From NCBI GenBank assembly GCA_903910555.1, contig CAIVZZ010000003.1:124001-188000 (forward strand): 64,000 bases of DNA. Reading direction: 5' to 3'. The position numbers and the translations under genes were made by a program. The notes below the pieces were generated by a model. That model did not search any database. It saw only the letters and a program-made list of their open reading frames with translations, and had not been told where the DNA came from. Below are positions 3,190-62,711 of this stretch, piece by piece (within the stretch, counting starts at the first letter, position 1; every line of letters begins with the position of its first letter). Source of the stretch: an uncultured Gemmatimonadota bacterium (GTDB lineage Bacteria > Gemmatimonadota > Gemmatimonadetes > Gemmatimonadales > Gemmatimonadaceae).

Positions 3190-5700
3190 ATGCCGCTGCC
3201 TGCAAACCCACCCAGCACGCCCGCGTCGCTCAGCAGCAATGCACGCACAGTTCTCGAGAAGCGTTACCTAGTAAAGGACAAGACAGGCAAGCCGGTAGAA
3301 GCGCCGGAGGACATGTTCTGGCGTGTGGCTACGGTGGTGGCCGAGGCAGACAGGCGGTACGGGGCAACGGACGAACAAGTCTCGGCGGTGGCCGCGACCT
3401 TCTATGCGCTGATGACTCAGCGCCGGTTCGAGCCGAATTCGCCCACTCTAATGAACGCCGGCCGTCCTCTGGGCCAGCTTTCGGCGTGCTTCGTCCTTCC
3501 AGTCGACGATGCGCTGAGCAACGGACATGCGGGCATCTACGACACGCTTCGCTCGATGGCGCTCATCCATCAGAGCGGCGGCGGAACGGGATTCTCGTTC
3601 TCGCGTTTGCGCGGCAAGGGCTCGATGGTGCGTTCGACGACGGGCGTCGCGAGCGGTCCCGTGAGCTTCATGAAGCTGTACGATGCGAGCACTGACGCCG
3701 TTAAGCAGGGTGGCACGCGTCGCGGCGCGAACATGGGAATCCTGCGCGTCGATCATCCGGATATTCTGGATTTCATCGCGTGCAAAGAAGACCTGACGCA
3801 GATCGTGAACTTCAACATTTCGGTTGGCGTCACGACGAAGTTCATGGAAGCGCTCGCAGTTAACGGCGAGTACGATCTCGTCGATCCCGTGAGCAAGAAA
3901 GTCACGGGCCAGATGCACGCGAAGGATGTGTGGGACAAGATGCTCGTCGGCGCGTGGCGCACGGGCGAACCCGGCGTGTTCTTCATCGACGAAGCGAACC
4001 GCTACAATCCCGTTCCGCACTTGGGCGCGTACGAAGCGACCAATCCGTGCGGCGAGCAGCCGCTGCTCCCGTATGACGTGTGCAATCTCGGTTCGATCAA
4101 CGTCGGCTACTATGTAAACGATGGCGCGGTCGACTGGGATTCGTTTGCGAAAGACATTCATCTGTCGACGCATTTCCTCGACAACATCATTGATGTAAAC
4201 AAGTACCCGCTGCCAGAAATCGACTCGCTCGCTAAACGCATCCGCCGCATCGGACTCGGCGTGATGGGCTTTGCAGACGCACTCGTGCGCCTCGGTATTC
4301 CGTATGACAGCCCCGAGGGCGTTGCGTTCGGCAAGCAGGTGATGGAGTTCCTCGACGTCGAAGGCAAAAAGGAGAGTGAGCGCCTCGCGACAGATCGCGG
4401 CGCGTTCCCAGAGTGGGCGCAGAGCATCTGGGGTCCCGATGCCACGTGCGCACGGGATGAATCGGGTGCCCGGATCCGTCCGATGCAGGCGCTGCGCAAT
4501 TGCAACGTCACCACGGTTGCACCCACCGGAACGATCTCGATCATTGCGGGCTGCTCGAGCGGGCTCGAGCCGTTGTTCGCAGTTGCGTTCATGCGCAATC
4601 AGGCCGGCGTTCGCATGCCGGACGTGAACGAAGATTTCACGAACATCGCGAAAGCCGAAGGCTGGTACAGCGACGAGCTCATGGAGCGCATCGCGAACGC
4701 TGGTCACATCGGATTCCCCGAGGTGCCGGCCAAGTGGCAGCGCGTGTTCGTCACGGCAAATGCGATTGCGCCGGAGTGGCACATCCGCATGCAGGCCGCG
4801 TTCCAGGAGCATTGCGATTCTGCAATCTCCAAGACGACGAACTTCGCGGGGAGTGCGACGCAGGAAGATGTGCGCGCGATCTACGAGCTCGCGTACAAGT
4901 CGCATTGCAAAGGTGTCACCGTCTATCGCGACGGCTCGCGCGACAATCAGGTGCTCTCGACGGGCGCCACCGATGTCGCCAAGGCCGAGCGTGAGAAGAC
5001 CGGCGAGTATCGTGTGGAAGTCGCCGATCTCCACAGCGCGATCACGGAGAAGGACGCAGAACTCGAGCGTCTCAAGAAAGTTCTGTTCGAAGTAGAGGCG
5101 GAAAACCTCCAGCGCCGCCAGAAGCGCGCGCGCCCGGATACGCTCCGCTCAACGTCGATCAAGAAAGAGACGCCGCTTGGTGTGATGTTCGTGCACATCA
5201 CCGAAGACGACAAAGGTCAGCCGTTCGAAGTGTTCATCAATCTCGGCAAGGCAGGCGGCAGCGCGATGGCCGATGCTGAAGCGGTGGGCCGTTTGATGTC
5301 GCTCGCACTTCGCTCTGGGATTTCGCTCCAGGCGTTGCATCGCCAGCTGCGAGGGATTTCCTCGGATCGCGCGGTTGGACTCGGACCGAACAAGGTTCTC
5401 TCGGTGCCAGATGCAATCGGTCTGGCGCTCGAAGACTGGATGAAGATGAAGCAGGGAGTGCAGCAGGAGCTGCTCGCATCAAGCGCGACCATCGATGCCG
5501 TTCAGCCGCCGATGTCGTTGAAGCCGCAGAATGTGATGGTGCGGAATACGTCGGGTGGGCTGGAGCATGTCGCGATGTTCGAGGCTTCCGGAAATGATGG
5601 TGCGGCGTTTATTGGAACGTGCCCGGACTGTGGATCGCAGTTGGAGATGGCTGAAGGGTGCGCAAAGTGCCATACCTGCGGATTTTCTGAGTGCGGGTGA
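3190..5700 (+). CDS. nrdJ: Adenosylcobalamin-dependent (class II) ribonucleotide reductase
   Basis: Reduces ribonucleotides to deoxyribonucleotides using a B12-generated thiyl radical; cytoplasmic. Counting from the ATG at 3190, the barrel has the first redox cysteine at C100 (LSACFVLP), the radical-site N285-P-C287-G-E289 and the partner cysteine C298 (DVCNLGSIN). The class II signature [14 protein letters not shown] follows. Residues ~600-650 are charged and heptad-like ([16 protein letters not shown]), a probable coiled-coil linker before the C-terminal domain. The C-terminus has CPDCG, then a CAKC..CGFSECG zinc-ribbon/swinging-arm tail that relays electrons. The length (836 aa) is normal for the long NrdJ form. 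No nrdR or thioredoxin gene is adjacent. A strong hairpin terminator lies 79 nt after the stop, so it is probably monocistronic. Confidence 0.97.
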
Positions 5701-12117: not shown

Positions 12118-13587
12118 ATGAAATCCCGCACCCCATTGCTCGTTGCCGCGATCTTCGCGGCAGCCGTCGTATCACCGGCTCGCGCCCAAACGAAACAATC
12201 AGCGGCGCCGGACCTCGACGCGATCGCCAAGAAGGTCATCGCGCGCGAGCAGGTCGTTGGCGCGTCGGTGTTGGTCACCCAAGGCGGCAAGGTGCTGCTG
12301 CACAAAGGATACGGATACGCCGAGCTCAATCTTCAGGTGCCGGCAAAGGACGAGACGGTTTATCACGTCGTCGGGCCGCTGATGCCGTTCACGGGCGTTG
12401 CGGTCATGCAGCTCGTCGAGAGCGGAAAGCTCTCGCTCGACGCGGACATCTCCACGCTCATCTCTGAATTTCCGCTGCAAGGCCATCACGTCACGGTTCG
12501 CGATCTCCTCGGCCACACCTCGGGCATAGTCGACTATCACTACTTGGGCGACGCGATCGACGGCACAAGCCGCCAGCCGAAGGCTCTTGATGAAGTCATC
12601 ACGCTGTTCTCGCACCGGCCGTGGATTAATGATCCCGGCACGACCTGGGATTGGTCGATCTCAGGGTTCGTTTTGCTAGTGGATATCATCGAACGCGTGA
12701 GCGGTCAGAGTTTCGACGACTACATGCAGCAGCACATCTACGGACCCGCAGGAATGAAGTCGACCACGCTGTGCGATGACTTCACGCTCACTCGCGGCCT
12801 GTCGCCAGGATATCGCCGCACCGCCGACGGCCATGTGCAGGCCGCCGAGAACGACATGGCGTTCAACTACGATCTCCGCTACTGCAGCACCGTCGGCGAT
12901 CTCGACCGCGGCTGGCAGGCGGTGCGCGATCACAAGCTGCTCAAGGGCGAATCGCTCACGCTGATGAGCACGCCGACCGGGCCGGGGATGCACATGAGCC
13001 CGACCGACGCCGAGATGCACTACGGGCTCGCGCTCACTCTGAATCATGAAGACAAGCATCGCAGCCGCGGACAGCATGGCTCGCTGCTCGGCTATGCCGG
13101 CGCGATGTATGAATTTCCGGAGGATCAGCTGACGGTAGTGGTGCTCACAAACACCGAGAATCAGAACGCGTATTCGGTTGCGCGCGCGCTGGCTCGTGCG
13201 GTGCTCAAGCTGCCGGAGCTTCCCGCGCCGCCCGCGCCTCAGCCGCCGCGTATACTGGCCGACGAACCAATGGCGCCGATCGCGCGTGCGCAGTTGCTAG
13301 GTGATTTTACGGTGCGCTACGACAAACTGCCGGCCGATCTGCACGGGTCGTTCACCCAATACCGCCGCACGTACCGAATCTTTGATGAAAACGGACGGCT
13401 GATGATCGAGCCGCGTGGTGAGGGTGCCGAACGTCTGCTCAAGCAGCCGGACGGCACGTTCGCGATGCGGTCGGCTCCGCGCACGGTGATCACCTTTACG
13501 ATCGAGAAGAACCGTGCGTCGCGCATGACGATGCAGTCGCCGGGTGCAGGGCGCACGCTCGCCGGAGGGAGAACCGGCACTGAGTAG
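12118..13587 (+). CDS. Exported beta-lactamase/serine-hydrolase-fold protein, catalytic motif lost
   Basis: A class C beta-lactamase/transpeptidase-like (PF00144 type) protein with a signal peptide (MKSRTPLLVAAIFAAAVVSPARAQ) starting at ATG 12118; in-frame ATG 12094 is an alternative. The fold is recognisable throughout: VLVTQGGKVLLHKGYGYAEL, VMQLVESGKLSLDADIS, VRDLLGHTSGI, FVLLVDIIERVSGQSFDDYM, HGSLLGYAGAMYEFP. The SxxK motif normally just before the FTxxAxMQLVE helix is replaced: Ser by G86 and Lys by M89. The YxN motif is W179-S-I181. Without Ser, Lys and Tyr it should not acylate substrates, so it is probably a binding or scaffold protein. Residues ~400-490 form an extra C-terminal lipocalin-like or DUF domain. 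Identity as a family member is sure; the role is unknown. Confidence 0.85.
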   Translation: MKSRTPLLVAAIFAAAVVSPARAQTKQSAAPDLDAIAKKVIAREQVVGASVLVTQGGKVLLHKGYGYAELNLQVPAKDETVYHVVGPLMPFTGVAVMQLVESGKLSLDADISTLISEFPLQGHHVTVRDLLGHTSGIVDYHYLGDAIDGTSRQPKALDEVITLFSHRPWINDPGTTWDWSISGFVLLVDIIERVSGQSFDDYMQQHIYGPAGMKSTTLCDDFTLTRGLSPGYRRTADGHVQAAENDMAFNYDLRYCSTVGDLDRGWQAVRDHKLLKGESLTLMSTPTGPGMHMSPTDAEMHYGLALTLNHEDKHRSRGQHGSLLGYAGAMYEFPEDQLTVVVLTNTENQNAYSVARALARAVLKLPELPAPPAPQPPRILADEPMAPIARAQLLGDFTVRYDKLPADLHGSFTQYRRTYRIFDENGRLMIEPRGEGAERLLKQPDGTFAMRSAPRTVITFTIEKNRASRMTMQSPGAGRTLAGGRTGTE

Positions 13588-31213: not shown

Positions 31214-31272
31214 CTTCGAATATCTCCTGAGCGGTGAGCGACGCCGAAAGTTACGAGGTTCTCCGGCGACGG

Positions 31273-31423
31273 GCGATGGGACAAACGGGGACGAGCGAAG
31301 CATGAGGTGCGATGGGACAAACAGGGACGAGCGAAGCATGAGGGGCGAATTGGCGAAGGGCGATGGGAGTTGAGTCCCGTCGCCCTTCGCTCTCATCGCC
31401 CCTCATGCTTCGCCCGTCCCCGT
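31273..31423. repeat. Tandem and inverted copies of the dispersed repeat, 5' border of the operon
   Basis: Two 36-bp tandem units (31273-31308, 31309-31344) differ at 2 positions. The second continues into a 48-nt arm (31321-31368) that pairs with 31375-31423 across a 6-nt loop, with a few mismatches and one indel. On RNA this would be a very stable hairpin. The arm is nearly the same as 25347-25392. It lies 59 nt upstream of the RraA-like start and 17 nt from the stop of the YXWGXW gene, so it also caps the 3' end of neither strand's coding sequence. Confidence 0.85.
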
Positions 31424-31440
31424 ACGTCTCCTCGCTGCAG

Positions 31441-31779
31441 TTAGCGCCAGCGGCCTTCGACGTGGTACCAACCATGGCTGTCATGCTCCCAATGATCAGC
31501 CACCCACTCGCGCCGTCCCTCGGCCGGACGTTCCCAGCGCCCCGAGACCCAGGCGAAATCGGATCCCTGCCAACCCCAGTAGCCCTTGATCCAGACGTAG
31601 CCGACGCCGGGCGACGCTGAAACGACTTCTACTCGTTCAGCGGGTGGTTCGCGCGAGATGTATGTGACGCCGAGACGCGGGCGTCCGTACACCGCACAAC
31701 CCGTGACCGGCGCAGCGAGCGCGGCCAGCACGAGCATCGTACCAAATTTACCAAGTTTCCTTGTCATCGTCATGGTCAT
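31441..31779 (-). CDS. YXWGXW-repeat lipoprotein
   Basis: A 112-residue protein with a lipoprotein signal (LAALAAPVTGCAVYG). The body has Trp-rich repeats: YVWIKGYWGWQGSDFAWVSG, then WERPAEGRREW and WYHVEGRW. This is the YXWGXW/BcpO-related repeat of small envelope lipoproteins of unknown role. It is alone; the repeat cluster borders its 3' end. Confidence 0.85.
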   Translation of the reverse strand: MTMTMTRKLGKFGTMLVLAALAAPVTGCAVYGRPRLGVTYISREPPAERVEVVSASPGVGYVWIKGYWGWQGSDFAWVSGRWERPAEGRREWVADHWEHDSHGWYHVEGRWR

Positions 31780-31882
31780 CTCCGGTGAGGTTCTCTTACG
31801 CCTTCGAGCGATCCTACACCGGTTTCAAAAAAAGTTGCCACGCGAAAAAATGCTTCGTGACACGCGTCACGATTATGGTGTT

Positions 31883-32911
31883 CTATGCTTTGCGCTGCAC
31901 TCCGGTGCGCACGGTTTCTGGAAACACGTAGCCGCGAATTCCGTGCGGCCGATACGGCGCTTCCAAGGCGGCGCACTCTTCGTCCGTGAGATTCAGTCCT
32001 ACTGCTTTCAGTGCGGTGTCGAGATGTTCCGGCTTCGTCGCGCCAATAATCGGCGCGGCAACTCCGGGCCGCCCCATCAGCCATGCGAGTGCAACTTCCG
32101 CCATCGACACTCCGCGTGCACTCGCAACGCGCGCTACTGCATCGACGACATTCCAATCATCCGGGCTGTCGTACAATGCCTCTGTGTATTTGTCGTTTCC
32201 GGCGCGCGCAGTTCCGGCGTCAACAATCTTCGCCGTTGCGGGTCGCGGCCTGGCGAGCAGGCCGCGTGCGAGCGGACTCCATGGCACGAGACCGACCCCG
32301 CCGTCGAGGCAGAGCGGAATCATCTCACGCTCTTCTTCGCGGTACATGAGGTTGTAGTGATTCTGCATGCCGACGAATTTCGCCCAGCCGTTTTTCTCTG
32401 ACGTCGAAAGTGCCTGCGCCATCCGCCAAGCCGGACCCGAGCTGGCGCCGATGTAGCGCACTTTCCCCCACCGCACGAGATCGTTGAGCGCCTCGAGCGT
32501 TTCGTCGATCGGCGTCTTTTCATCAAAGCGATGGATCCAGTAGAGATCGATCACATCGACGCCGAGTCGCTTGAGGCTCGCTTCGCACGCCTGCACGACA
32601 TGCTTGCGCGACAGGCCGCCCATGTTCGGACCGGACGTCATCGCGAAGTTCAATTTTGTCGCGAGGACTATTTCCTCGCGATTCGCGTATTCCTTGAGCG
32701 CGCGGCCGGTGACTTCTTCGCTGGCGCCGAGCGAGTACATGTCGGCGGTGTCGAAAAAGTTGATTCCGGATTCGACCGCTTTGCGGAAGAACGGTTTCGC
32801 GGCGGGTTCGTCGAGGACCCAGGGGCGCCACTTGGAGCTGCCGAAGCTCATGCAGCCCAGGGCGAGGCGCGAGACGGTGAGGCCGGTGCGGCCTAGCTGA
32901 GTGTATTCCAT
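31883..32911 (-). CDS. Aldo/keto reductase
   Basis: A 342-residue NADPH-dependent TIM-barrel enzyme of the AKR11/YdhF-like group. Motifs: MEYTQLGRTGLTVSRLALG, GINFFDTADMYSLGASEEV with the catalytic Asp and Tyr, LATKLNF with the Lys, LYWIHRFD with the His replaced in context by WIHR, and the C-terminal PIIGATKPEHLD for cofactor binding. Cytosolic carbonyl reduction; substrate unknown. It is separate from the upstream and downstream genes by ~60-100 nt. Confidence 0.95.
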   Translation of the reverse strand: MEYTQLGRTGLTVSRLALGCMSFGSSKWRPWVLDEPAAKPFFRKAVESGINFFDTADMYSLGASEEVTGRALKEYANREEIVLATKLNFAMTSGPNMGGLSRKHVVQACEASLKRLGVDVIDLYWIHRFDEKTPIDETLEALNDLVRWGKVRYIGASSGPAWRMAQALSTSEKNGWAKFVGMQNHYNLMYREEEREMIPLCLDGGVGLVPWSPLARGLLARPRPATAKIVDAGTARAGNDKYTEALYDSPDDWNVVDAVARVASARGVSMAEVALAWLMGRPGVAAPIIGATKPEHLDTALKAVGLNLTDEECAALEAPYRPHGIRGYVFPETVRTGVQRKA

Positions 32912-37637: not shown

Positions 37638-37666
37638 GTCGTGAGCCGACGGCTTTGAAACTGAAC

Positions 37667-37790
37667 GACGTCAGACGTTAGCTCTTAGCGAATAGCTCTG
37701 AGATAAACGGCCTCTTTACAGATCTGTGCGCCGATCTGTAAGGAGGCCGTTTGTCTCGCGGCTAATCCCTCGCAGCTAACGTCTGACGTC
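37667..37790. terminator. Nested stem-loops after the sortilin-like gene
   Basis: The outer stem is perfect: 17 nt at 37667-37683 pair with 37774-37790. Inside, 20 nt at 37705-37724 pair with 37733-37752 with one wobble and an 8-nt loop (TGTGCGCC). The inner hairpin starts with AAAC and ends with GTTT, a shape typical of bidirectional terminators, but there is no long T-run. It probably ends transcription of the preceding gene; the outer stem is unusual. Confidence 0.65.
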
Positions 37791-37866
37791 GGGCGGTTTG
37801 ATCTGGCAGCTGTCGTCGTTTAGTTAAAGGTCTCTCGCCTTAAGCCTCCTCTTTCGAATCGAACCA

Positions 37867-38253
37867 ATGTCCCTCCCCAACAAGCAGCCCTGGTCTTCCG
37901 TCAAACTCGAAGTTTTGACTCCGATGCTCTCGCGCCGCGTCCTCACCGCCGAGAAGGCGATGATCGCGCAGGTCTATTTGAAGAAGGGCGCGGTGGTAAA
38001 AGCGCATGAACACCACAACGAACAGATCACTTATATCCTCGAAGGCGGCCTGCGCTTCTGGCTCGGCGAAAATGCCGACAAGGCGCCGAACGGCGAGTAC
38101 GTCGACGTGATGGCTGGTGAGGTCCTGCTGATCCCGGGCGGACTCCGCCATCAGGCTGAAGCGCTCTCTGACACACTCGATCTCGACGTGTTCACGCCGC
38201 CGCGTGAAGACTGGCTCAACGGATCGGACGCGTATATCCGCGAGCAGAAGTAG
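37867..38253 (+). CDS. Small cupin protein
   Basis: A 128-residue single-domain cupin without a signal peptide. Motif 1 is KAHEHHNEQITYILEGGLRFWLG with two or three His and a Glu for metal; motif 2 is LIPGGLRHQAEAL with the remaining His. It lies 4 nt before the next SDR gene, so they form a unit. Cytosolic; relatives are small dioxygenases, isomerases or sensory cupins. Role unknown, but pairing with an SDR suggests a sugar or keto-acid substrate. Confidence 0.88.
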   Translation: MSLPNKQPWSSVKLEVLTPMLSRRVLTAEKAMIAQVYLKKGAVVKAHEHHNEQITYILEGGLRFWLGENADKAPNGEYVDVMAGEVLLIPGGLRHQAEALSDTLDLDVFTPPREDWLNGSDAYIREQK

Positions 38254-38257
38254 TCGT

Positions 38258-39046
38258 ATGGACCTCGGACTATCGAAGCGGATCGCGCTTGTCTGTGGTG
38301 CGAGCAAGGGAATCGGTTACGCATGCGCGGAGGAGTTTGCGCGTGAAGGTGCGTCGGTCGCGATCGTCGCACGCGACGCGAACTCTGTCGCCGCTGCCGC
38401 AGCGAAGCTGGGCAAGCACGGCGCGAACATTTTCCCGATCATTGCGGATCTCAGCACGAGCGAAGGAACGGCGGCGACCGTCGCGAAGGTGATCGAGCAC
38501 TATGGCCGCGTGGATGTTCTCGTCACGAATACAGGCGGCCCGACGCCGGGCCCCGCTCTTTCACACGACTGGGCGGCCTGGACGAAGGCGATCGAGCTGC
38601 TGCTGCGCAGCGCGGTGGAACTCACGCGCGCGCTCGTGCCCGGCATGCAGGAGCGAAAATGGGGACGCGTGATCGGCATCACCTCGATCGCCGTGAAAAA
38701 GCCGGTGGCGAGCCTGGTGTTGTCGAACAGTTTGCGCGCGGGCGTGACGGGCTACTACCGCACACTGGCAAATGAAATCGGAATCGATGGCGTGACGGTG
38801 AACACCGTGCTCCCGGGCTACGTCGCGACCGAGCGGCTCGAACAGCTCGCAGAAGCCACGGCGAAGCGGACGGGTGCGACGCGCGACAGCATTACGGATT
38901 CATACAAGGAAGGGACGCCGGTCGGGCGTGTTGGCACGCCGGCGGAGATCGCGGCGGTCGTGGCGTTTCTGGCCTCGGAAAAGGCGTCGTTTGTTACGGG
39001 GCAGGCGATACTCGTTGATGGCGGGCGGTCGGGGACGCTGTTCTAG
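38258..39046 (+). CDS. SDR-family protein lacking the catalytic Tyr/Lys
   Basis: 262 residues with the NAD loop GASKGIGYACAEEF, NTGG (for NNAG) and VLPGYVATERL. Catalytic S143 is present (GITSIAVKKP), but the expected YxxxK reads S156...R160 (LSNSLRAGV). This atypical sub-branch (SN..RAG) recurs in FabG-annotated proteins and may act without the classical tyrosine, or be a regulator. Start ATG 38258 is 4 nt after the cupin stop. A 253-nt inverted repeat starts 17 nt after its stop, so transcription could run into a strong hairpin. Confidence 0.88.
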   Translation: MDLGLSKRIALVCGASKGIGYACAEEFAREGASVAIVARDANSVAAAAAKLGKHGANIFPIIADLSTSEGTAATVAKVIEHYGRVDVLVTNTGGPTPGPALSHDWAAWTKAIELLLRSAVELTRALVPGMQERKWGRVIGITSIAVKKPVASLVLSNSLRAGVTGYYRTLANEIGIDGVTVNTVLPGYVATERLEQLAEATAKRTGATRDSITDSYKEGTPVGRVGTPAEIAAVVAFLASEKASFVTGQAILVDGGRSGTLF

Positions 39047-39063
39047 GCGGAGTGGGAGTTAGA

Positions 39064-39316
39064 GGTGAGTGGGAGTTGAGAATGAGAGGTGAGTAAGAGA
39101 GGGAGGGATGAGTTTGAGCAAGATCAGAGGGAGTTTGAGGGATGAGAGTGAGGTTGAGTCGGAGTTGAGTCGGAGTTGAGTCGGAGTTGAGCGGGAGTCT
39201 CCTCCCTCGCCACTACTCGCACTCAATCTCACTCTCGCCCCTCAAACTCCCACTGCGCGTACTCAAACTCATCCCTCCCTCTCTTACTCACCTCTCATTC
39301 TCAACTCCCACTCACC
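39064..39316. repeat. 253-nt near-palindrome, cytosine-free on one arm
   Basis: Outer arms 39064-39118 and 39262-39316 are a perfect 55-bp inverted repeat. Two 10-nt unpaired segments (39119-39128, 39252-39261) face each other, then inner arms 39129-39158 and 39222-39251 match at 27 of 30. The apex has three tandem 11-bp units TCGGAGTTGAG (39159-39191). The left arms contain no C and the right arms no G. It lies between the SDR stop and the TTG start of the DEAD-box helicase, 53 nt from that start. Confidence 0.95.
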
Positions 39317-39369
39317 GCTAAGTCCCGCAGTTTGGTTAGATTTCCGGCTTACCCCAGTCCGGAATCCAC

Positions 39370-40689
39370 TTGTCGTTTAGTTCACTCCAGCTCCACCCCA
39401 GCCTCCAAAAAGGCCTCAAAGAACTCGGCTATACCCGCCCCACGCCGATTCAGGCTGATTCCATCCCGCCGGCGCTCGAAGGGCGCGACGTTCTCGCCTG
39501 CGCGATGACCGGCAGCGGCAAGACTGCTGCGTTCGTCCTGCCGATTCTGCACAAACTCATCGATCGTCCGCGGGGCACCACGCGCGCGCTCGTGCTCACA
39601 CCCACGCGCGAACTCGCGGCGCAGATCCTCGAAAGCATCAACGACCTCGCGGTGCACACGCCAATCACCGGCGCGGCTGTTTTTGGCGGCGTTGGAATGG
39701 GCCCGCAGGAACACGCGTTCCGCAGCGGTGTCGATATCATCGTCGCCACGCCGGGGCGGCTGCTCGATCACTTTCGCTCGCCGTACGCGAAACTCGCCGG
39801 CCTTGAATACCTCGTGCTCGACGAAGCCGATCGCATGCTCGACATGGGATTCCTGCCCGACATCCGCCGCGTGATCAAACATCTGCCGCCCAAGCGGCAG
39901 ACCTTGTTCTTCTCGGCCACGATGCCGCCGCCGATCGCCACGCTCACGCGCGAGATGCTGCACGATCCGGTCACGCTGAATGTCGAGCGTGAATCGAAGC
40001 CTGCGGTCGGAATCACGCAGGCCGTCTATCCCGTCACGCAGGATCTGAAATCCGCGCTCCTGTTGGCGCTGCTCACGAGTGGCGAGATGAAAGAAGCGCT
40101 GGTCTTCACGCGCACGAAGCACCGCGCGAATCGCATCGCCGAGTATCTCGTGCGTCACGGCATCAAGGCGGAACGCATCCACGGCAATCGCTCGCAGTCG
40201 GCGCGCACTGCCGCGCTCGCGGGATTCAAGGACGGCACCTATCGCGTGCTCGTCGCCACGGATATCGCTGCGCGCGGCATCGACGTGGAAGCACTCGGCC
40301 ACGTCGTGAATCTCGACGTCCCCGCCGCGCCGGAGGATTACATCCATCGCGTCGGCCGCACGGCGCGCGCCGAGCTCAAGGGTGACGCGTTCACGTTCGT
40401 TGCGCCCGACGAAGAGGCGGATCTGCGCAATATCGAGCGCGCGATCGGACGCCGTCTGCCGCGTGTCACGGTCCCCGATTTCAATTACAACGCGAAGCCC
40501 GAGGGAAAACTCGAGGTTCCACTTGCCGAACGTCTCGCGAAGCATCGCGCGAATAAGGCCGGTGATCGCATGCGTGCCGCGGAGAATGCAAAGCGCCGCG
40601 GCAACGCGCCGCCGGCAGGTGGCGGACGCCGCGGCGCCGGTGGGTCTGGTTCGGGGCAGGGCGGTCGCGGCGGCGGACGGTCCCGCTAG
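39370..40689 (+). CDS. DEAD-box RNA helicase (RhlE-like)
   Basis: 439 residues beginning at TTG 39370. Motifs in order: Q-motif TRPTPIQADSIPPAL, Walker A CAMTGSGKTAAF, PTRELAAQI, ATPGRLLDHF, VLDEADRMLDMGF, FFSATMPPPIA, then the helicase-C motifs VATDIAARGIDVE and HRVGRTARA. The C-terminal tail is Gly/Arg-rich (GGRRGAGGSGSGQGGRGGG), for RNA contact. It unwinds structured RNA in ribosome assembly or RNA decay. The leader contains the large hairpin described at 39064-39316, so it may control its own mRNA (inference). Confidence 0.97.
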   Translation: MSFSSLQLHPSLQKGLKELGYTRPTPIQADSIPPALEGRDVLACAMTGSGKTAAFVLPILHKLIDRPRGTTRALVLTPTRELAAQILESINDLAVHTPITGAAVFGGVGMGPQEHAFRSGVDIIVATPGRLLDHFRSPYAKLAGLEYLVLDEADRMLDMGFLPDIRRVIKHLPPKRQTLFFSATMPPPIATLTREMLHDPVTLNVERESKPAVGITQAVYPVTQDLKSALLLALLTSGEMKEALVFTRTKHRANRIAEYLVRHGIKAERIHGNRSQSARTAALAGFKDGTYRVLVATDIAARGIDVEALGHVVNLDVPAAPEDYIHRVGRTARAELKGDAFTFVAPDEEADLRNIERAIGRRLPRVTVPDFNYNAKPEGKLEVPLAERLAKHRANKAGDRMRAAENAKRRGNAPPAGGGRRGAGGSGSGQGGRGGGRSR

Positions 40690-60893: not shown

Positions 60894-61988
60894 ATGGCAA
60901 AAACGATTCGCGCCGCGGTGATGACCGCGCCGCACAAGCCGGTCGAAGTTCGTGAACTGCCGTGGCCCACGCTGGAGCCGGGCGCCGCGATGCTGAAGAC
61001 ACTCTACTCCGAGGTCTGCGGCACCGACGTGCACCTCCTTCACGGCAAGCTCGCGGGCGTGCCGTATCCGATTGTGCCGGGCCACGTATCAATCGGGCAT
61101 CTCGCTGAGATCCGCGGCAAGGTCACTGATATCAATGGCGATGAATTTCACGAAGGCGACCTCGTGACATTTCTCGACGTGCACGAGACATGCGGGCGAT
61201 GCTACGAATGTCTCGTCACGAAGCAGACGACGCGTTGTCCGTCACGCCGCGTGTACGGAATTTCTTACGGAGTAGCAGACGGACCGCTCGGCGGATGGGC
61301 CGATCATATCTGGATGAAGCCGGGCGTGAAGATGCTGCGGATTCCGAAAGGCGTCGATCCGATTTCGTTCATCGCGGGCGGGTGCGGATTGGTTACGTCG
61401 GTGCACGCGGTGGAACGCGGTGATGTCCGGCTCGGATCATCCGTTGCCGTGCTCGGCGCGGGTCCGGTAGGCCAAGGTGCCATCGCGCTCGCGCGGCTCG
61501 CCGGCGCATATCCCGTGATCGCGATTGGTGCGCCGGCACCGCGTCTCGAGTTCGCGAAGAAAATGGGAGCGACGCACACGATCAGTCTCGACGTACCCGC
61601 CGATGATCGTGCGGCCCTCGTCCGTGAGATCACCGGTGGACATGGCGTTGATGTCGTGATCGAAGCGGCCGGCGATCCGCGCGCGGTGCCGCAAGCGCTC
61701 GATCTCGTGCGCGATGGCGGACGCGTCGTGATTGCCGGCCAGTACACCGACCACGGCGACATCTCGATCAATCCGCATTTGCAGATCAATAAGAAGCACG
61801 CCGAGATTCGCGGCTGCTGGGGATGTGATTACTCGCATGTGCATCGCGCCGTGCAGGTCCTCGCGCATCAGGGGAACGCGCTGCCGTGGGCGGAGTCGAT
61901 TACTGCGAAGTTCGGGATCGATCAGGCGAACGAGGCACTCGCGGCTGTTGAGAATCGCAGCGTGATCAAGGCAGTAATCATTCCTTAA
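60894..61988 (+). CDS. Zinc-dependent alcohol dehydrogenase (MDR)
   Basis: 364 residues. Catalytic-zinc Cys in EVCGTDVHLLHG and the His in VPGHVSIGHL (where most relatives have GHE). The structural-zinc lobe reads CGRCYECLVTKQTTRCP. The nucleotide motif is VLGAGPVGQGAIALARL. It oxidises an alcohol or polyol with NAD; this GHVS branch is unassigned. ATG 60894 is the only ATG near the family start. No ribosome site is visible in the pyrimidine-rich leader. Confidence 0.95.
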   Translation: MAKTIRAAVMTAPHKPVEVRELPWPTLEPGAAMLKTLYSEVCGTDVHLLHGKLAGVPYPIVPGHVSIGHLAEIRGKVTDINGDEFHEGDLVTFLDVHETCGRCYECLVTKQTTRCPSRRVYGISYGVADGPLGGWADHIWMKPGVKMLRIPKGVDPISFIAGGCGLVTSVHAVERGDVRLGSSVAVLGAGPVGQGAIALARLAGAYPVIAIGAPAPRLEFAKKMGATHTISLDVPADDRAALVREITGGHGVDVVIEAAGDPRAVPQALDLVRDGGRVVIAGQYTDHGDISINPHLQINKKHAEIRGCWGCDYSHVHRAVQVLAHQGNALPWAESITAKFGIDQANEALAAVENRSVIKAVIIP

Positions 61989-62132
61989 GCTCACAGTCCT
62001 AGCTCCCAGCTCGCCAGCTCATTGCTTGGCCGTGTCATAGCTCGAGCTGAGTGCGTCTGGGCGGGGCTGGGAGCTTGAGCTCTGACAAGGCCAAGCTGGG
62101 AGCTCACGAACTTGGAGCTCGAACTGTGAGCT
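61988..62132 (+). repeat. Direct repeat A flanking the four-helix-bundle gene
   Basis: The 132-bp core 62001-62132 aligns without gaps with 62580-62711, 115 of 132 identical. AGCT-rich and self-complementary (AGCTCACAGT at 61988-61997 pairs with ACTGTGAGCT at 62123-62132; GCTTGGCC pairs with GGCCAAGC). The edge of the repeat contains the stop codon of the gene at 62131. Confidence 0.92.
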
Positions 62133-62496
62133 AACCTCCGCTGGCTGGGCGGAGTCTCTTCTGCAGTCCGATGAGCATCCTGCGAACCTCGATGACATCG
62201 GGCAGATATTCCTTTACACGGTCAGCGGGAATCAGCTTTGCCTGTGCGACGAATTCCAGATGGCATTCGAGCTCGGAGCTCGAACCGATGGCGATCTGAA
62301 CGAACTTTGCAAAATCAGAATCCGAAGCGCGACCACATCCTTCGGCGATGTTCGTCGGGATCGAGAGGGCCGCGCGGCGAAGCTGACTGACCAAACCGGA
62401 ATTTCCCCGACGCGGGATCAGATCGGTCAGCCGATGCACATTGAGCGCGAGAGTCTGGGCTTTTTGCCAGACTGTGAGTTTATGGAAATCTTGCAT
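62131..62496 (-). CDS. Four-helix-bundle protein (S23 / 23S rRNA intervening-sequence protein family)
   Basis: 121 residues: MQDFHKLTVWQKAQTLALNV, then FVSQ-like RRGNSGLVSQLRRAALSIPT and NIAEGCGRASDSDFAKFVQI, the diagnostic motif of the TIGR02436 family. These small basic helical bundles were first found in rRNA intervening sequences and are related in fold to the bAvd accessory protein of diversity-generating retroelements. It is alone on the minus strand and sits between two 132-bp direct repeats. Role unknown. Nucleic-acid binding is likely. Confidence 0.93.
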   Translation of the reverse strand: MQDFHKLTVWQKAQTLALNVHRLTDLIPRRGNSGLVSQLRRAALSIPTNIAEGCGRASDSDFAKFVQIAIGSSSELECHLEFVAQAKLIPADRVKEYLPDVIEVRRMLIGLQKRLRPASGG

Positions 62497-62579
62497 CTGG
62501 CGAACGTATTGGAAACGGCTCCGCCGAGTGTCATCATTTCGCCGCTGTGTGTAGCGTTAAGTCGTTCGCTCCGAGCTCC

Positions 62580-62711
62580 AGCTCCCAGCTCGCCAGCTCA
62601 GTGCTTAGCCGTGTCATAGCTCCAGCTGATCGCGTCACGGCGGGGCTCAGAGCTTGAGCTTTGAAAAGGCCAAGCGGGGAGCTGACGAGCTTGGCGCTTG
62701 AACAGTGAGCT
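62580..62711 (+). repeat. Direct repeat B flanking the four-helix-bundle gene
   Basis: Second copy of the 132-bp repeat, same orientation as copy A, start-to-start distance 579 bp. 83 nt separate it from the four-helix-bundle start; these probably hold that gene's promoter. Between copy B and the DUF305 start only 54 nt remain. Confidence 0.92.

Follow-up and report, generated by a model that had tools for sequence, protein, structure and literature searches.

Introduction

In REPIN/RAYT systems, each RAYT gene has its own family of hairpins (PMC3116915). The 23S rRNA intervening sequences (IVSs) are cut by RNase III, and an old proposal held that the IVS open reading frame served mobility; the role of its product, IVP/S23p, and the mobility of the intervening sequences have been in question for decades (PMC4990558).

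Here, we describe a long hairpin at positions 39054–39326 of the window, which is the whole 64-kb stretch of DNA that was analysed. The hairpin arms characteristic of 23S rRNA IVSs were found both in this hairpin and in the flanks of IVP genes, and a coding member of its family encodes an IVP, whereas its location, between an SDR gene and a helicase gene, is not that of an IVS. As in REPIN/RAYT systems, the extragenic hairpins and the flanks of a cognate gene have sequence in common, the gene in this case being that of the IVP. The best reading of these observations, with a probability of roughly 0.6, is a REPIN/RAYT-like system related to the 23S intervening sequences, in which the IVP is the partner of cognate mobile hairpins.

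Results

Structure and setting of the 39054 hairpin

The window belongs to a genome of 3.2 Mb in 32 contigs (G000). The features at the locus are the following, the sister genomes being referred to as G012, G010, and G002.

38204–39046, plus strand: SDR-type oxidoreductase gene, the upstream host gene; neighbour conserved in G012, G010, and G002
39054–39326: ORF-less hairpin (inverted repeat) with arms 39054–39172 and 39208–39326 and perfect stem 39064–39118/39262–39316
39119–39128: left side of the internal loop, with its partner at 39252–39261
39156–39190: tip with three 11-bp tandem repeats, in the place that holds the IVP gene in the coding member
39370–40689, plus strand: DEAD-box helicase gene with a TTG start, the downstream host gene

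The hairpin begins 7 nt past the stop of the SDR gene (39046), and its arms, of 119 nt each, are 87% complementary and separated by a spacer of 35 nt. The architecture described in an earlier sequence-only reading was reproduced: 39064–39118 is the exact reverse complement of 39262–39316 over 55 bp, with the perfect run ending there, the symmetric 10x10 internal loop and the three 11-bp tandem repeats at the tip are present, and the perfect stem is followed, after 53 nt, by the TTG-start DEAD-box gene. The description of the hairpin as cytosine-free applies to the left arms, which contain no C (the right arm contains no G), but not to the hairpin as a whole, as its right half is C-rich. This C-free/G-free composition is a property of the GAG-rich words of this family, and most other hairpin families of G000 are not purine-biased.

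The minimum free energy of the hairpin as RNA was –218 kcal/mol, compared to –108 kcal/mol for shuffled sequences (z = –20.3), and the fold of the same sequence as DNA gave z = –19.9 against shuffles. The features of an intrinsic terminator were not observed, with no U-tract after the hairpin and no terminator-like sites in 38900–39600. The hairpin itself contains no IVP/S23p ORF, which is present in the coding member on contig C25.

The stretch of about 45 nt between the hairpin and the helicase start (39327–39369) contains a small inverted repeat, TTCCGG...CCGGAA, and is well conserved in G012, G010, and G002, unlike the adjoining hairpin. This stretch is a candidate promoter or 5' UTR element.

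A dispersed family with an IVP-coding member

The sequence-only reading had recommended a search for further copies, and relatives of the hairpin were found at about 10 loci of the same genome (contigs C30, C9, C4, C6, C13 (two), C16, C25, and C26 (two)), which excludes a chance origin. The copies share their arms and the position of the internal loop, and a defect of 7–10 nt at this position is kept in all seven aligned copies, while the tips differ and are built of short tandem words. Compensatory changes were seen in 18 of the 99 consensus base pairs, a level that was reached by none of 500 shuffles.

The arms within a copy (similarity 0.91) are more alike than the arms of different copies (0.86; permutation P = 0.0013, or P = 0.007 leaving out the 39054 hairpin), and entire families change together between species, so that the earlier proposal of recent formation or active correction stands in a modified form. 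Autoregulation of the helicase, which had also been proposed, is not supported, as the sister copies follow unrelated genes, at their 3' ends; the helicase is simply the downstream neighbour. An assembly artefact is not supported either, given the long hairpin at the same site in three other genomes and the sister copies at other loci.

The coding member, at C25:11981–12824, carries the family arms on both sides of an IVP gene, and the arms of the 39054 hairpin are 90–92% identical to these cognate arms. The gene product belongs to PF05635 (23S_rRNA_IVP; 50 bits) and to TIGR02436 (four helix bundle protein), reaching the curated score, and its AlphaFold2 model (mean pLDDT 89) has the four-helix fold and matches the S23-family structures 2rld and 2gsc. 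The site lies between accD and rodA, gene names read from the neighbouring reading frames, and not in rRNA. The 39054 hairpin and the C25 locus are copies of one dispersed palindromic element: the former lacks an ORF, and the latter has the same arms around an IVP gene. Among the origins proposed earlier, that of a palindromic mobile relic comes closest to the evidence, given the multi-copy ORF-less family and its IVP-coding relative; the mobility is inferred from the dispersal.

A copy on contig C13 is flanked on both sides by classical terminator-like hairpins with T-runs (L082:13085–13120 and 13421–13458), and is therefore additional to the terminator there rather than a replacement for one.

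The same IVP model also showed a weak match to Avd of a diversity-generating retroelement (4dwl, 8ub7). This fold similarity would be consistent with an IVP that acts like Avd while a reverse transcriptase copies the hairpin RNA. However, no reverse transcriptase match (PF00078) was found in G000, G002, G010, G012, or G023, all of which are IVP-rich; such retro-mobility is disfavoured and highly improbable, unless a divergent reverse transcriptase was overlooked.

Hairpin families are matched to IVP genes

The census of long hairpins covered stretches totalling 454 kb of the 3.2-Mb G000, and gene calls came from a home-made codon model. When the 34 long hairpins in these stretches were clustered with the IVP gene flanks, 29 fell into nine families with one or two IVP genes per family, whereas five had no IVP partner, and every IVP gene of G000 anchors a hairpin family. 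G000 has at least nine IVP-plus-hairpin families. Direct matches to IVP flanks of their own genome were observed for 26 of the 34 hairpins, and to IVP flanks of other genera for none; in the control, the flanks of 11 random genes gave 0 to 15 hairpin matches, a neighbouring hairpin often being included in the flanks.

All four window hairpins (31273, 37658, 39054, and 61988) are members of IVP-anchored families. Two of them are the following.

31273–31435: ORF-less hairpin, family of the IVP at G000:C15:260405
37658–37799: ORF-less hairpin, family of the IVP at G000:C18:43859, 20 nt past a stop codon

The hairpin at 31273–31435 is contained in a 702-bp segment (31215–31916) that G012 and G002 lack at the corresponding site. 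This segment holds a small minus-strand gene with a lipoprotein-like start and a W/Y/G-rich product, with the hairpin at its 3' end.

Among the same-genus genomes, those with 0–1 IVP genes contained one long hairpin in 680 kb, whereas those with at least three IVP genes contained 47 in 692 kb. In G023, which represents another genus, six of the 11 hairpins match IVP flanks of the same genome. A Holophagales genome contains about 20 dispersed matches to the arm of one of its IVP elements, several of them in a hairpin arrangement. The exceptions, both from other genera, were G021, where 100 kb held no long hairpin despite eight IVP genes, and G020, with no IVP genes and three long hairpins in 100 kb.

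Although G020 has no PF05635 gene to go with the three long hairpins in its 100 kb (L317–L321), the genome has three Y1 transposase genes, and a different hairpin system may therefore operate there.

Several contigs end inside hairpin-family arms, namely at the starts of C6 and C26 of G000 (L012, L017) and in C50, C121, C131, and C157 of G012. These repeats therefore probably cause short-read assemblies to break, and counts of them from MAGs are probably too low.

IVP genes are framed by inverted repeats

G000 contains 11 PF05635 genes, all of which are framed by inverted repeats of 45–170 bp and none of which lies beside rRNA. One of these elements lies in the window.

61988–62132: hairpin left of the window IVP gene
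62131–62496, minus strand: window IVP gene (PF05635, 110 bits; TIGR02436), the coding member of another family
62564–62711: hairpin right of the window IVP gene, an inverted copy of 61988–62132

No Rfam family was matched by the 64-kb window or by the sequence flanking the 11 IVP genes of G000. Inverted repeats also frame 23 of the 29 IVP genes in relatives; the controls gave 5 framed loci among 400 random positions and 1 among 19 SDR loci. The contigs of many phyla were scanned with a second IVP profile (A2), the first (A1) being too diverse, and the closest named matches were from Gemmatimonadetes MAGs, which makes this phylum the most likely source of the window. Framing was found at 46 of the 71 loci with full flanks, compared to 2 of 140 control positions shifted by 900 bases. 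Signatures of 23S rRNA were present at only three of these loci (Gracilibacter, Lentibacillus, and Alkaliphilus), and free-standing IVP elements are therefore the rule in this sample.

Dispersed ORF-less inverted-repeat copies are also what would be expected of ordinary MITEs, that is, internally deleted relatives of a DNA transposon with a transposase encoded elsewhere and the IVP as accidental cargo. However, arms frame IVP genes across phyla and, within G000, in nine families with unrelated arms, and accidental cargo is unlikely because the same protein family is framed each time. In addition, no target-site duplication was seen, and Y1, the only transposase family covered, is absent. We regard this explanation as improbable.

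Placement at the 3' ends of genes

Among intervals longer than 60 bp, long hairpins occur in 13 of 24 between convergent genes, 14 of 85 between codirectional genes, and 3 of 31 between divergent genes (convergent versus divergent, P = 0.0007), and many start about 10 nt or less from a stop codon. When mismatches were read in the sense of transcription, G.U exceeded A.C at codirectional sites (47 versus 24, P = 0.009) but not at convergent sites (31 versus 36). The excess at codirectional sites hints at maintenance as RNA, although a strand-biased C-to-T mutation would give the same skew.

These features bear on the alternative that the hairpins are terminators or RNA processing sites kept by the host under selection, and that IVP genes are passengers that invade the tips and carry the arm sequence along. 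The location of the hairpins at stop codons and in convergent intervals, the hairpin at the same intergenic site in four species, and the G.U excess are all consistent with this alternative. In contrast, the near absence of hairpins from same-genus sisters with 0–1 IVP genes, the sequence common to different loci within a family, the match of one or two IVP genes to each family, and the missing U-tract of the 39054 hairpin argue against it, and a coding-strand C-to-T bias could produce the G.U skew. Host-kept structures are an unlikely, though not negligible, explanation.

Hairpin families change in step between sister species

The SDR-helicase interval was compared in the sister genomes, as had been recommended, and a long hairpin was found in each of G012, G010, and G002, with a sequence unlike that of G000: the hairpin type is GAGTTGAG in G000, GGGGAGTGGCGAG in G012 and G010, and a third type in G002. 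In both genomes, the G012/G010 type recurs at tens of dispersed places, and it also frames their IVP gene at the accD-rodA site, with flanks that are 83–85% identical. The IVP orthologues at this site are about 75% identical, whereas the arms barely align. Species-specific hairpin types were also found at the uvrA-adjacent site (in G010, one arm being left in G000) and at the queD site, and, as a half-hairpin, at a fifth site. Across the accD-rodA IVP locus and the SDR-helicase, uvrA-adjacent, and queD sites, the sites are inherited, while the arm sequence of the family has been rewritten genome-wide in step with the cognate IVP arms.

G012 and G010 carry the loop of the SDR-helicase hairpin in opposite orientations, although a misassembly could account for this. 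Such an inversion, as well as the higher similarity of arms within than between copies, would be expected if template switching at replication forks both created inverted duplications and maintained their perfect match, with no mobility involved. However, this process leaves the dispersed families and their IVP match unexplained. As a full account, it is very unlikely; as a secondary process, it may keep the arms alike.

Orthologous copies of the hairpin at 37658–37799 are present in G012 and G010, the site in relatives being at L200:5999–6136, L201:8492–8629, and L204 about 4145–4196. At this site, G002 has a short hairpin, the outer ends of which (AACTGAACG/CGTTTAGTT) are those of the long hairpin of G010. 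This comparison raised the idea that elements insert at the tip of an existing terminator hairpin, as IVSs do in 23S helices. The idea is not supported, as the outer flanks in the rest of the family are largely unpaired.

Discussion

In the REPIN/RAYT-like system favoured here, each IVP would recognise its own hairpin as single-stranded DNA or RNA, probably acting as a pentamer like its solved relative, and would promote the copying of the hairpin into 3'-flanking DNA and the homogenisation of the copies. Host enzymes would perform the DNA chemistry, since the IVP has no known catalytic domain. In the host transcript, the long stem could be a substrate of RNase III, the cleavage of which would split the SDR from the helicase mRNA, as in the IVSs of 23S rRNA. 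No clean empty site with a target-site duplication was found for the 39054 family, and hairpin 31273 sits in a larger indel, so that transposition is inferred from dispersal.

The Y1 transposase (PF01797), the sole transposase family covered, had no match in G000 or in the same-genus genomes searched, and the arrangement has the look of a mobile repeat system of a kind not yet recognised, which lacks any known transposase. More tentatively, and at somewhat below even odds, IVP-hairpin systems may constitute a widespread mobile class, in which a non-catalytic four-helix-bundle protein and its cognate hairpin spread and homogenise via host enzymes only, the 23S IVSs being copies that landed in rRNA genes. 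A search of the openly licensed literature, which is weak evidence on this point, yielded no account of free-standing IVP genes accompanied by dispersed hairpins.

The IVP gains a concrete candidate partner, its own hairpin, and many natural IVP-hairpin pairs become available for studies of specificity. The system also accounts for a class of long palindromes in intergenic DNA at which short-read assemblies break. If the reading is true, it represents an independent counterpart of the REPIN/RAYT arrangement that operates without a transposase.

Compared with the known systems, the elements resemble REPIN/RAYT (PMC3116915) in that extragenic hairpins form distinct families, each tied to a single-copy gene flanked by the same palindromes, and in that the gene is vertically inherited and co-evolves with the repeats. 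In contrast, the partner is an IVP four-helix bundle instead of a Y1 tyrosine transposase, and the hairpins measure 100–350 bp rather than tens of bp; because the Y1 transposase is absent, the IVP-hairpin system is not a member of REPIN/RAYT. The elements share with MITEs the short, ORF-less inverted repeats common with a coding member, but that member encodes an IVP rather than a transposase, and no target-site duplication was found. The resemblance to Avd of diversity-generating retroelements (4dwl, 8ub7) is a distant one, of the fold of the IVP model, and, unlike those retroelements, G000 has no reverse transcriptase (PF00078). As in the 23S rRNA IVSs with an S23p/IVP ORF (PMC4990558), inverted-repeat arms surround an ORF of the same family and form a hairpin RNA with the gene in its loop, whereas the present elements lie between protein genes and have dispersed ORF-less copies. 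Free-standing IVP elements with non-coding derivatives are the nearest summary of what they are.
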